The translations under genes and the position numbers were made by a program. Of a DNA stretch of 10,790 bases, positions 2,426 to 10,790 are shown piece after piece. This DNA is from Nitrospinae bacterium RIFCSPLOWO2_12_FULL_45_22. Lineage in GTDB: Bacteria > 2-12-FULL-45-22. The stretch's first letter is position 1, and each line of letters begins with the position of its first letter. The stretch is taken from contig MHDQ01000078.1 of assembly GCA_001803565.1 (NCBI GenBank), positions 1 to 10,790 of the forward strand, written 5' to 3'. The notes under the pieces are model-generated. The model worked only from the letters and a program-made list of their open reading frames with translations, had not been told where the DNA came from and made no database searches.

Positions 2426-2448
2426 GGTAACGGTTGGGAGGTGAATGC

Positions 2449-5007
2449 ATGAAGCAACATGAGGTTGATATTTTATCAAGAGTTCGTGATGAGTTAAATC
2501 GCTTAGGTTATGTTGACAAACTTTTACGACAAGACTACGTCTTTGATGATGCATCCGCCACAGGAACCCGAGAGCTGCATATACCCTTAGCAGCCTTTGC
2601 CCAATGGCCACCATCTTATCGCAATGCTTGTATAGGTGTGCTGACTGCGAACCGTCAACCGGGTCCAGAGCATGTTTCAAGCTATAGCACCCTAGGAGCC
2701 CCAATGTTTTTTGAGACGTTTCAGGACCGTATTGACCGATACCGTGTTGAAGCCTCTCGCCATGCTGTTTTCTTGGAGTCAATTCCAGCCCCAAATATCC
2801 CTAATGCCTTTGAGGCCAACAGAGAGAAGTGGGCCCCTGACACAATTTTCCGTGCCAAAGCTATCACGCCATTGACAGGTCCTGTTCAGCTCGATTTTAT
2901 TGATATAGGCCTTTTCCCTGCTCTAAAGGGTATGATCCATGGTAAATTGGATCGTTTACTAAAGGATATATTACAGAAAGCCATCATTACTTATGAGAGC
3001 AACACCTCAGGCGTCAAACCGGACGAAACTTTGCTCTTTCGCCTGATTTTCCGTTTCCTTGCGGCTAAAATTTTAAAGGACAAGAAACATCCTGGTAACT
3101 GGGCGACCCCCCAGGCAAATAGCATAATTGAAGAAATCCAAAGGTTTTATGGGCTCACTGCACCTAACATGCAAAAGATCCTTGATGAGCCGGGTACACA
3201 GCAGATTGTGTGGGATAAGTTTCGAAACGCTTTTAACTTTCAAAATACCTCTGTGGATGATCTGGCGTTTATTTATGAAAATACTTTAATAAGAGAAGAA
3301 ACTCGTAAACAATTTGGAATACACAGTACTCCGCCTGTTATAGCCGAACTCATAGTCGACCGACTTCCCTTTGAATCATTGCCTCAGGATGAACGTTACG
3401 TTCTCGAACCCTGTGCAGGACACGGTGTTTTTTTGGTTGCAGCCTTGCGCCGTCTTCGCGAATTATTGCCCATATCCTGGAGAGATAAGGAGAGACACAG
3501 GTATCTAAAAGACCGATTAACTGCTATTGAGATTGACCCTTTTGCCGCTGAGGTCTGCCGCCTATCCTTGATATTAGCTGATTATCCCAATCCGGACGGC
3601 TGGGAAATTATGCCTGAAGATATCTTCGCCAGCGACGTTCTAAAGAAGCAATTAAAAACATCCCAAATTGTTCTCTGTAACCCCCCCTTTGAAGATTTTA
3701 CCCCATTTGAAAGAATCCGTTATAGTAATAAAGTTCTAAGTGTCCACAAACCTTATGAGATTCTTCGCAGAGTCCTGGAACATCCTCCGGCCATGTTCGG
3801 CTTTGTGTTACCAAAATCTGCTATAGTGGGAGGAAGATATAGAGACCTCCTAGAACAAATTGTCCGTACTTATAAGAACATAGAAACGATAGCTCTACCG
3901 GATCGGATCTTTGTGTTTTCAGATCAAGAGGCTATGTTAGTCCTTGCTTATGAACATGATAAGACAGCCAATGCAAACGTTCTTACTCGCACCTTTTGGG
4001 TACGCGAAAATGATAGGCAATCGTTGCTCGAAACAAGGCGATTACCCAAAGAGATTAGCAAGGTCATAAATCGCTCAACTCATACGAGACCTATTTCCCC
4101 TTGGAATGCTCCCCTTTCAGAAATTTGGGATTATCTCAAAAGTTATCCCCAGTTAAAGGATGTGGCCGACATTCACAGGGGTATTGAATGGAATATTTCT
4201 CTCAAAGAAAATAGAAGTATTTTGATATCTTCTGAGCCAAAACCCGGCTTCAAAAAAGGAATAGACAAGGTTCGAAGGAAAATAGAGCCTTACTATACCG
4301 AGGGATTCGTATATCTCAATATGGATGAGCAGTATCGCCGAACAACCTCGCATTCATTGCCTTGGGATAGTCCCAAGGTCGTTGCTAACAGTCGCAGGAT
4401 AAGCCGGGGGCCGTGGAGGATTGTCGGTAGTCCGGATTCAAGCGGCTTGGTTTGTTACACAAATTTTTTAGGGATGTGGCCAAAAGTAGATATAAATATA
4501 GAAGCGCTTTCAGCTATCATTAATTCCCCTTTGGTCAATGCGGCGCTTTATCTTAAAGGGTATGGACGTGATAACCTGATTAATATATTGGAAAAAATCC
4601 CAATCCCTTTTTCGATGGCTATTGATACAGATAGAATTACTCTCCTCGCCAGGTACTATGCCAAACTTAGATCAGAATTTAAAAAGGGCCCTGTTAAAGC
4701 AACAACTATTAATGAATGTATCAAAACACTAATGGAAATAGACGGTTTGATTCTAAAGGCCTACGATCTCCCTCCAGGGCTTGAACGGAAGCTTTTGGAG
4801 TTTTTTAGAGGATACGACAGACCCCTTCCATTTGGTTTTCCTGACTATTATCCGCCGAAATTTGGACCCTATATTCCATTGCATAAGTACCTTAAGATGG
4901 ATTTTAAACAAGCCAGCGCCAAAGAGCTTCTTAAAAGAATCATCCCTTTTGATTCCGAAGAAATACATGAACTGGTAATGGATATTGAGAGAAGGCAATC
5001 CTTATGA
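2449..5007 (+). CDS. N6-adenine DNA methyltransferase with C-terminal recognition-like region (Eco57I/type IIG-like)
   Basis: The product is an 852-residue protein expected to methylate adenine in DNA using SAM. ATG 2449 is chosen because GGGAGGTG lies 5 bases upstream; the in-frame TTG at 2434 lies before that site. Residues 1-160 form an N-terminal domain I do not recognise; a helical region follows (about 160-285). The catalytic core has FGIHSTPPVIAELIVDRL (289-306), motif I VLEPCAGHGVF (318-328), acidic IEID (360-363), and catalytic motif IV NPPF (411-414), the gamma-class N6-adenine signature. The C-terminal half (about 550-720) has features of target-recognition regions in single-chain type II/BREX-like methylases: LKDVADIHRGIEW, WDSPKVVANSRR and INSPLVNAALYLKG. 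I see no PD-(D/E)XK nuclease motif or helicase domain, so it is not an obvious type IIG restriction enzyme. Its stop overlaps the start of the PIN nuclease gene (ATGA), so the two are probably translated together. It may be an orphan methylase or the modification half of an unusual two-gene system. Confidence 0.9.
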   Translation: MKQHEVDILSRVRDELNRLGYVDKLLRQDYVFDDASATGTRELHIPLAAFAQWPPSYRNACIGVLTANRQPGPEHVSSYSTLGAPMFFETFQDRIDRYRVEASRHAVFLESIPAPNIPNAFEANREKWAPDTIFRAKAITPLTGPVQLDFIDIGLFPALKGMIHGKLDRLLKDILQKAIITYESNTSGVKPDETLLFRLIFRFLAAKILKDKKHPGNWATPQANSIIEEIQRFYGLTAPNMQKILDEPGTQQIVWDKFRNAFNFQNTSVDDLAFIYENTLIREETRKQFGIHSTPPVIAELIVDRLPFESLPQDERYVLEPCAGHGVFLVAALRRLRELLPISWRDKERHRYLKDRLTAIEIDPFAAEVCRLSLILADYPNPDGWEIMPEDIFASDVLKKQLKTSQIVLCNPPFEDFTPFERIRYSNKVLSVHKPYEILRRVLEHPPAMFGFVLPKSAIVGGRYRDLLEQIVRTYKNIETIALPDRIFVFSDQEAMLVLAYEHDKTANANVLTRTFWVRENDRQSLLETRRLPKEISKVINRSTHTRPISPWNAPLSEIWDYLKSYPQLKDVADIHRGIEWNISLKENRSILISSEPKPGFKKGIDKVRRKIEPYYTEGFVYLNMDEQYRRTTSHSLPWDSPKVVANSRRISRGPWRIVGSPDSSGLVCYTNFLGMWPKVDINIEALSAIINSPLVNAALYLKGYGRDNLINILEKIPIPFSMAIDTDRITLLARYYAKLRSEFKKGPVKATTINECIKTLMEIDGLILKAYDLPPGLERKLLEFFRGYDRPLPFGFPDYYPPKFGPYIPLHKYLKMDFKQASAKELLKRIIPFDSEEIHELVMDIERRQSL

Positions 5008-5513
5008 ATGGTTACCTATTGGATACCAACGCAGCCAGTATCCTTTGGGATGCCCGGCATACGGATCACAACAAAATCAAATCTTTTCTCGAAAACCATT
5101 CCCAGTCCCTCCTCTGGATATCTATTATCGTGCTGGCAGAGGTTGAGTACGGACTAAAAACAGCTCCCAAAATGGACACAAGTCGTCAGAATGATGTCAG
5201 GAATGAGATGGCCAAATTTCCCGAAGTTCTTGACCTGGATAAGCACACGGTCTCTTCCTATTCGGATATTCGTGCAGAATTGTTTAAAACTTATTCACCA
5301 AAAGTCCGGAGAAAAAGGCTAACAGCAAAATGGCCAGAAGACCTTTTTGAACGAACAAGTGCCAAAGAACTCGGAGTCCAAGAAAATGATATATGGATAG
5401 CATCGCAAGCAATTCAATACAATTTAATACTGGTTACTGATGATCGCATGTCCCGGCTTGTAGAAGTCTCTAATTCCCTCAATGACCCCCTACAAATTGC
5501 TAAATGGAGATAA
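5004..5513 (+). CDS. PIN-domain (VapC-like) ribonuclease
   Basis: The 169-residue product has all the acidic positions of a PIN nuclease, which uses Mg2+ or Mn2+ to cut RNA. These are Asp7 in YLLDTNAAS, Glu46 in VLAEVEYG, Asp129 in ENDIWIAS, and Asp146/Asp147 in LVTDD. Between the third helix and ENDIW lies a basic insert (about 96-124, with KVRRKRLTAKW) that makes it longer than a typical VapC of about 130-140 residues. The start ATG overlaps the methyltransferase stop by 4 bases and has no separate promoter, so translation is probably coupled. No VapB-type antitoxin gene precedes it; the partner position is taken by the DNA methyltransferase. It could be a toxin held in check by that protein, the effector of a defence module, or a VapC captured by chance. 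The nuclease fold is nearly certain; its target is unknown. Confidence 0.9.
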   Translation: MNGYLLDTNAASILWDARHTDHNKIKSFLENHSQSLLWISIIVLAEVEYGLKTAPKMDTSRQNDVRNEMAKFPEVLDLDKHTVSSYSDIRAELFKTYSPKVRRKRLTAKWPEDLFERTSAKELGVQENDIWIASQAIQYNLILVTDDRMSRLVEVSNSLNDPLQIAKWR

Positions 5514-9686: not shown

Positions 9687-9765
9687 CAAAAGCTTTAGCC
9701 TCTTCCTACGACTACTGGCCTGAAAGTTGATTCCTGAAACCTCATACCTCTATACCTACTTAAGT

Positions 9766-9795
9766 ATTATACCGACTTCTCGGTGAAAATCTTCA
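9766..9795 (-). promoter_or_regulatory. candidate promoter for the ABC exporter operon
   Basis: On the minus strand a perfect TATAAT (9771-9766) lies about 80 bases before the ATG at 9686. The best -35 at 18 bases upstream is TGAAGA, only three of six matches, and there is no extended TGn. Position and -10 box support it; the -35 does not. Confidence 0.45.
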
Positions 9796-9796
9796 T

Positions 9797-9937
9797 GAGA
9801 TTGCGGAGGCTGTTCCGAGCGGGGTGAGGAATCTCGCGCCGGGTTTGCTTCGGCTTCGCCTTGCAACTGCTAGCGCACCTTGCAATGACATTACGAAACC
9901 TTTTTCTGTCATTGAGTCCAAAGCGAAGCAATCTCAG
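9797..9937. repeat. degenerate palindromic repeat cluster (GCAATGACA / TGTCATTG ... GAAGCAATCTC)
   Basis: CAATGACA (9883-9890) faces TGTCATTG (9907-9914). To the right is AAGCGAAGCAATCTC (about 9920-9935). To the left, inverted, is a longer unit with TTGCTTCGGCTTCGCC, and GAGATT (9797-9802) faces AATCTC (9830-9835). These are the ends of a repeat of the form TGTCATTGCGAG...CGAAGCAATCTC, known to me from many environmental genomes (recalled, not searched). Two copies appear head to head, both diverged. No gene is supported in this part of the divergent gap. Confidence 0.55.
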
Positions 9938-9980
9938 TCCCTCGTTATTTCACAGAGAATTGCGGCCTTGACTCCCAATA

Positions 9981-10021
9981 TAACAGTCTATAATATAGGG
10001 ACGTTATGCCAAAGACTGTTA
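9981..10021. repeat. 9-bp inverted repeat with 23-base loop
   Basis: TAACAGTCT (9981-9989) and AGACTGTTA (10013-10021) are exact reverse complements. The loop is AT-rich. It lies between the repeat cluster at 9797-9937 and the nested element at 10047-10260, and no function is evident. Confidence 0.45.
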
Positions 10022-10046
10022 GTTATCAGAAGGCTGGTGACAGCAA

Positions 10047-10260
10047 TATATTATCCTGGATCCAGAGCGAATGATGAAAATCCTTTATAAAATGATGATT
10101 CGGCTATCACAGAATGTAGGGACGGGGTTCATCCCCGTCCGCTCTGCCTGTGCTATGGCAGACCTGTCTGCCATAGCACAGGCAGGCAGGTAAAACGGAC
10201 AGCCACAAGGGCTGTCCCTACAGTTAAATAAAAAATTCGCTCTGGATTCAGGATTATATA
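10047..10260. mobile_element. MITE-like nested palindromic element with 26-bp terminal inverted repeats
   Basis: A 26-base segment at 10047-10072 (core ATCCAGAGCGAAT) is repeated in inverted orientation at 10235-10260 with 24 of 26 bases matching. The enclosed DNA has no gene but holds a second nested inverted structure at 10115-10222. The ends are TATAT-rich, compatible with a TA target, but no longer flanking duplication is visible. The right end lies about 30 bp before the CoA-transferase start codon. No transposase is present, so it could only be non-autonomous. The two inverted repeats might instead be separate dispersed repeats. Confidence 0.5.
10115..10222. repeat. two inverted 27-bp hairpin units flanking a 19-bp perfect hairpin
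   Basis: The left unit (10115-10141) and right unit (10196-10222, inverted) share TGTAGGGAC at the outer end and CYGTCCG at the inner end. Each folds into an 8-bp stem: GGACGGGG/CCCCGTCC on the left and GGACAGCC/GGCTGTCC on the right. Between them a 19-bp perfect stem (10144-10162 with 10167-10185, loop CCTG) carries CTGCCTGTGCTATGGCAGA and its complement. The whole block could form a cruciform in DNA or a branched RNA. Confidence 0.75.
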
Positions 10261-10276
10261 AAACGAAGTAAATAAA

Positions 10277-10284
10277 GAGAGGGG
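10277..10284 (+). promoter_or_regulatory. ribosome binding site of the CoA-transferase gene
   Basis: GAGAGGGG ends 6 bases before ATG 10291. This is good Shine-Dalgarno spacing and fixes the start. No clear promoter pair is seen upstream; a TATATA at 10255-10260, within the right inverted repeat, lacks a matching -35 box. Confidence 0.6.
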
Positions 10285-10290
10285 CAAAAG

Positions 10291-10790
10291 ATGAAGAAAG
10301 AAGAGTTTTACCGAGAAAAGAAAGAGACTACTATCGGGCCTTTAGAAGGCGTAAGGGTTCTGGAGGCCACTACTTCGGGGGCAGGACCTTGGGCCGGGAC
10401 CCTACTGGCGGATATGGGTGCCGAGGTGATAAAGATTGATCAACCAGAGGCCGGGGATGTGGTAAGAAGGCTCCCACCCTTCTTGAAGCCTGAAATGCCC
10501 CAAGAAACCGGCCTATTCCACCTATCCATCAATAGGAACAAGAAGAATATCACCCTTAAATTATCCTCTGACGAAGGGGCCGAGATATTCAAGAGACTGG
10601 CCCTGCATATGGATATTATTATCGAGAATTTCAAGCCCGGGACTATGGATAAATGGGGTATAGGCTATAAAGCTATTGAACAGATACACCCGGCAATCAT
10701 CTATACCTCGGTTTCAGGCTTCGGACAATATGGCCCGCTCCATACCCGGGCAGGTTATGATGGTGTAGGCCAGGCTATGGGTGGCCTGAT
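10291..10790 (+). CDS. CaiB/BaiF-family (class III) CoA-transferase, N-terminal part
   Basis: The first 166 codons are present and the frame is open at the window edge; full-length members are about 400 residues. Family features are PLEGVRVLEAT (17-27), GPWAGTLLADMGAEVIKID (32-50) at the CoA-binding N-terminal fold, FHLSINRNKKNITL (76-89), IIIENFKPGTMDKWGI (109-124) and YTSVSGFGQYGP (138-149). Asp157 in AGYDGVGQAMGG matches the catalytic aspartate (Asp169 of formyl-CoA transferase), which carries the acyl group as a mixed anhydride. Such enzymes move CoA between carboxylic acids, for example carnitine, bile acids, oxalate/formate or aromatic succinates. The acyl substrate cannot be told from this part. 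It is divergent from the ABC operon, and the repeat-filled gap separates them. Confidence 0.93.
   Translation, partial: MKKEEFYREKKETTIGPLEGVRVLEATTSGAGPWAGTLLADMGAEVIKIDQPEAGDVVRRLPPFLKPEMPQETGLFHLSINRNKKNITLKLSSDEGAEIFKRLALHMDIIIENFKPGTMDKWGIGYKAIEQIHPAIIYTSVSGFGQYGPLHTRAGYDGVGQAMGGL

Follow-up and report, generated by a model that had tools for sequence, protein, structure and literature searches.

The window, by which we mean the whole stretch of 10,790 nucleotides that was analysed, carries the start of a class III CoA-transferase gene (PF02515), and directly upstream of that gene lies a nested set of inverted repeats (Table 1). Mechanical inverted-repeat finding returned outer arms of 26 nt and central arms of 20 nt, and a pattern search resolved between them an inner pair of units, inverted relative to one another, both of which follow the pattern GTAGGGAC...GTCC. 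As a chance control, the region 9690-10290 was subjected to 60 dinucleotide shuffles, in which the best 26-mer inverted repeat reached 18/26 and the best 20-mer inverted repeat reached 16/20, relative to the 24/26 and 20/20 observed. The single-strand fold of -117.9 kcal/mol (z = -13.5) was equalled in 0 shuffles. Three nested levels of symmetry are therefore confirmed in the window, far beyond chance. A preliminary description of this DNA had proposed three such levels in a 214-bp element, with a 24/26 outer repeat whose right arm lies 30 bp ahead of the start codon, and with a perfect 19-bp hairpin at its core. The three levels, the outer repeat and its distance to the ATG at 10291 were borne out; the hairpin is indeed perfect, but is 20 nt in length, and 214 bp is the span of the symmetry, whereas the element proper takes up 10055-10252, a length of 198 bp. 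At either outer end, the remaining 8 bp consist of a 5-bp target duplication and host TATA-rich flank.

Table 1. Features of the nested repeat and of the gene start downstream of it, with positions in the window.
Feature	Position	Strand	Basis and remarks
Outer inverted-repeat arms	10047-10072 / 10235-10260	.	26 nt, 24/26 complementary; mechanical inverted-repeat finding
Left target-site duplication ATTAT	10050-10054	.	Identical to 10253-10257
Left terminal inverted repeat CCTGGATCCAGAGCGAAT of the MITE, best filed as IS1380-type	10055-10072	+	Pattern and profile searches; end also 3' of the L118, L119 and L123 transposase relics
MITE backbone, left arm	10073-10115	+	Common to C132, C79, C71, C129, C201 and C218; alignments, profile
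GTAG-tagged REP hairpin 1, GTAG-GGACGGGG-TTCAT-CCCCGTCC (unit GTAGGGACGGGGTTCATCCCCGTCC)	10116-10140	+	Hairpin and pattern searches; type also at C100 and C106
Two inverted copies of a 24-bp palindrome, consensus CCTGTCTGCCAAGGCACAGGCAGG	10142-10190	.	Arms 10144-10163 / 10166-10185, 20 nt, perfect complement (mechanical inverted-repeat finding); solitary copies elsewhere
GTAG-tagged REP hairpin 2, inverted, other stem type, GTAG-GGACAGCC-CTTGT-GGCTGTCC (unit GTAGGGACAGCCCTTGTGGCTGTCC)	10197-10221	-	Hairpin and pattern searches
Right terminal inverted repeat, CCTGAATCCAGAGCGAAT on the - strand	10235-10252	-	Inverted-repeat finding and genome pattern search
Right target-site duplication ATTAT	10253-10257	.	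With host flank, makes the TATATA of the preliminary description
Class III CoA-transferase gene start (PF02515)	10291-10788	+	MITE ends 38 bp before the ATG

The outer level has the properties of a MITE, being short, non-coding and multicopy, with terminal inverted repeats and a target-site duplication. Its true termini, CCTGGATCC...GGATTCAGG, are flanked by the 5-bp duplication ATTAT, and no ORF of at least 60 aa lies within the 198 bp; the tail of an 88-aa mechanical ORF (9824-10090) crosses the left arm. A pattern search of the genome with CCTGGATCCAGAGCGAAT, allowing up to three mismatches, gave 23 matches compared to 3 for the reversed control. Alignment of MITE left arms resolved a shared backbone, CCTGAATCCAGAGCGAATGnTAATAAATGCTTnCCAGATAAAGATTTGCTnATCACAAnATG. 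A profile of this backbone, built from seven left arms including that of the window copy, gave E-values of 7e-13 or lower for its seven training arms, as must be expected of training sequences (the window copy, itself a training sequence, scored E = 1.2e-13), and detected four further relics in the genome beyond the training set at E below 1e-3. Nine two-ended copies are found in the genome, and single ends or relics are about as numerous; for C201, only the left arm was usable in the multi-copy alignment.

With the bounds of the element taken from CCTG to CAGG, exact 5-bp duplications flank six of the nine two-ended copies, i.e., C78, which is the window copy (ATTAT), C132 (TTTAT), C79 and C129 (each TTTAA), C321 (TTTAC) and C138 (TTAAT), and no exact 5-bp duplication is seen at C71, C201 or C175. 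Flank identity occurs at 5 bp and never at 3, 4, 6, 7 or 8 bp (apart from a chance match at 2 bp for the window copy), and a permutation test in which the right flanks were shuffled among copies gave p of about 1e-4. These identities are transposition scars. They do not fit the empty site with a single TA that had been expected at this locus, and a duplication of 5 bp rules out a TA-target (IS630/mariner-like) reading of the outer repeat. When the empty site was sought in the only order-level relative, G001, no match to the terminal inverted repeat was obtained there, and the regions upstream of the G001 paralogues have nothing in common with the window.

Members of the IS1380 family produce 5-bp target duplications (PMC2887853), as described for IS1247 (PMC3281130). 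The MITE end also resembles the published ends of ISEcp1, CCTAGATTCTACGT and CCTAAATTCCACGT (PMC10101111), terminal repeats of the CCT(R)GATYC type being common to the window element and this family. A search for the exact 18-bp end across 84,980 species genomes showed that it is carried by several deltaproteobacterial MAGs, beside AT-rich flanks. At two loci reached via this DNA end, L118 and L119, it lies ~200 bp past a C-terminal fragment matching the IS1380 family. The L118 fragment matched PF13701 at E = 2e-13 and NF033539 at E = 4e-26, the latter below a curated cut-off that is meant for the whole protein, and the L119 fragment is 59% identical to it. A third locus, L123, was reached via the protein alone; its end, checked afterwards, lies past the stop codon as CCTGAATCCAGAGCGAAC, with one mismatch to the 18-bp end. 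The MITE end is thus found at the 3' end of three NF033539 relics, each of them a degenerate 3' remnant of a transposase gene in another MAG, with one end each.

Unlike the IS1380 family members, the window element has no transposase gene, and its own genome yielded no intact parent: six PF13701 matches were obtained in this genome, which is 85% complete, and none bears the MITE ends. A search of 155 + 395 genomes around L118 and of viral contigs gave 3' relics only, or nothing, and no intact IS1380 element with MITE ends was found in the order-level relative or in the sampled genomes. Since no intact parent was found, we infer the mobiliser from the 3'-end relics in other MAGs. On the combined grounds of the relic-adjoining ends, the likeness to ISEcp1 and the 5-bp duplications, the outer element is best filed as an IS1380-type MITE.

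The inner level is formed by hairpins 1 and 2, which together make an inverted heterodimer of the REPIN type. An unpaired GTAG at the hairpin foot is seen in both window units, and the two-unit inverted orientation is seen in the window, at C100 and at C106. Published GTAG-tagged REP dimers have the same organization, i.e., a hairpin preceded by GTAG, with two units of unlike stem in inverted orientation (PMC3733652). As in known GTAG REP dimers and REPINs, which are associated with RAYT (TnpAREP), the genome also holds RAYT genes beside GTAG hairpins: REP_Tyr_transpos genes were recognised by NF047646 at C49 (E = 2.5e-61), C141 (3.9e-29) and C282 (4.4e-26), those at C49 and C141 being accompanied by GTAG hairpins. 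The window dimer differs from the known cases in that none of the RAYT genes of the genome is flanked by the exact GTAGGGAC REP type, and in that a pattern search for this exact stem type found only three dimers in the genome, in the window, at C100 and at C106, all of them inside other inverted-repeat elements. REP-associated tyrosine transposase genes at L103 (1256-2030) and L104 (1450-2050) are accompanied by their own types of GTAG hairpin. The intergenic region that holds the element contains one more REP-like stretch, GCAATGACATTACGAAACC...GTCATTGAGTCCAAAGCGAAGCAATCTCAG, at 9870-9960 of the window, and GTCATTGTGAGCAAAGCGAAG at L137 is similar to it.

The dimers at C100 and C106 sit inside a different inverted-repeat element, which begins TATACYNAAYTGATT. 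At C106 the spacer of the dimer is 9 nt long and lacks the palindrome; that of C100 contains a similar but shorter stretch. This second element, with its TATACYNAAYTGATT ends and GTAGGGAC dimer, is observed at L010 (1433-1560) and L147 (94-230), and its ends suggest a TA-type target. Among the MITE copies, the place of the window dimer is taken by a different GTAG type in C132 and C201 and by another palindrome in C71 and C79, and C129, a copy of 89 bp, consists of the MITE backbone without REPs. Because the inner blocks differ or are absent among MITE copies, and because dimers occur elsewhere, the outer and inner levels are separable.

The central level is likewise a dispersed repeat. Its two inverted palindrome copies together form the 20-bp perfect central hairpin, and the palindrome occurs as a solitary copy at about 15 other sites in the genome. 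At L118 (~5050-5090), a palindrome, GCCTGTCTGCGTGCTGCGCACAGGCAGGC, that resembles this central repeat adjoins the IS1380 relic. With outer ends present without the inner block, and inner blocks present without the outer ends, the structure is three nested repeats, not one element. The preliminary description had hinted at a mobile element, which was correct as to mobility; it had also recognised that outer repeats found independently of the inner block would speak against a single unit, and such independence is observed at C129. Since the levels occur independently of each other, the notion of a single architecture is not retained.

We consider it highly probable that the locus is a MITE with IS1380-type ends that was inserted at ATTAT and in which the REP dimer and then the palindromes came to be nested. 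The 198-bp MITE would have entered the leader region of the CoA-transferase gene, duplicating those 5 bp, and would owe this move to an IS1380-family transposase that acted in trans and binds CCTGRATCC...GGATYCAGG. The parent IS1380 element would be expected to bear CCTGRATCCAGAGCGAAT at both ends, and an element-free leader allele should read ...GCAATATATTATATAAAACG..., with a single ATTAT. The GTAG-REP dimer adjoins the conserved CACARAAT of the backbone, where a REP-associated tyrosine transposase most likely inserted it, and the two inverted copies of the third dispersed palindrome would then have come to lie inside the spacer of the dimer. The nesting would represent repeats accumulated by insertion into a non-coding safe harbour. 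A close precedent exists for an architecture that had at first seemed to match no named element: in Anabaena variabilis, long palindromes have taken up GTAG-15 dimers (Di Nocera et al. 2013; PMC3733652). In both cases a longer palindromic element encloses a REP dimer. The window structure differs in the REP-free copy that exists of its outer element, in the 5-bp duplications and IS1380-type end of that element, and in the third palindrome, which lies within the dimer.

A considerably less probable account is that a GTAG-REP dimer was captured by the MITE once, that the composite spread as a unit, and that the REP stems diverged in place. This would explain why GTAG or similar hairpins recur at one place in several copies, with a GTAG hairpin inside C132, C201, C124, C321 and the window copy, mostly directly after CACAAAAT or CACAGAAT, and why C132 and C201 share one REP type. 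Against this account, the window shares its REP type with C100 and C106, whose dimers lie in an unrelated inverted-repeat element, and not with C132 and C201; C129 is free of REPs, and C71 and C79 have a different palindrome at that place.

Any effect of the element on the CoA-transferase gene, through a long structured 5' leader or through separation of promoter and gene, would be a by-product of this nesting. The TATATA at the right end had led to the proposal that the element could influence transcription; this TATATA is mostly duplicated target and host flank, and a search for sigma-70-like promoters found none in the right arm. Promoter-like matches were few (three, compared to 1.1 expected in shuffles); a weak one at 10023-10052 stops at the left edge of the element, and if it is real the element lies within the 5' leader. 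At C78, C79, C321, C83, C127 and C85, a long frame starts with an SD-preceded ATG 22-38 bp downstream of an element end, which makes 6/27 ends examined relative to 4.1% of intergenic AT-rich 5-mers (54/1319; p of about 7e-4), an enrichment that is a lead only, being post hoc and based on a small sample, on mechanical reading frames and on a control from the same loci.

The strong fold (z = -13.5), the spacing to start codons and the weak match at the left edge would together be consistent with a folded element that acts in the 5' UTR of the CoA-transferase gene, by attenuation, RNA protection or an outward promoter. We regard such a regulatory role as improbable: the fold is strong because of the repeat symmetry, the right arm is devoid of promoter-like sites and promoter matches are few, a preference for AT-rich targets could account for the position, and the enrichment was spotted after the copies were viewed. 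A leader-RNA effect is possible in view of the enrichment ahead of start codons. About as improbable as the regulatory role is a reading in which the IS1380-type MITEs of this lineage offer a docking site, after CACARAAT, where several types of GTAG-REP dimer are acquired or swapped again and again; two unrelated transposition systems would then build a modular mobile cassette for 5' leaders, with a tendency to insert 22-38 bp ahead of translation starts. A functional structured RNA, i.e., a riboswitch or sRNA, is very improbable despite the high stability of the structure, given that both strands fold about equally well, as follows from the palindrome, and that all Rfam families scored below the gathering score, with hairpin look-alikes only; an Rfam structured RNA identity was rejected on that basis. 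The locus is a stack of known kinds of mobile repeat upstream of a gene, and not a new regulatory device.

The three-level symmetry is thus accounted for by three dispersed repeats, and the same genome contains simpler forms of the outer two. Other mobile elements may serve REP dimers as landing sites, a point of relevance to how REPs spread, and the locus can aid the annotation of genomes from this candidate phylum. Elsewhere in the window, a large N6 DNA methylase-like protein is encoded at 2434-5513, with a weak match to MAD2 and BREX PglX models, and a PIN-domain gene follows directly after it.
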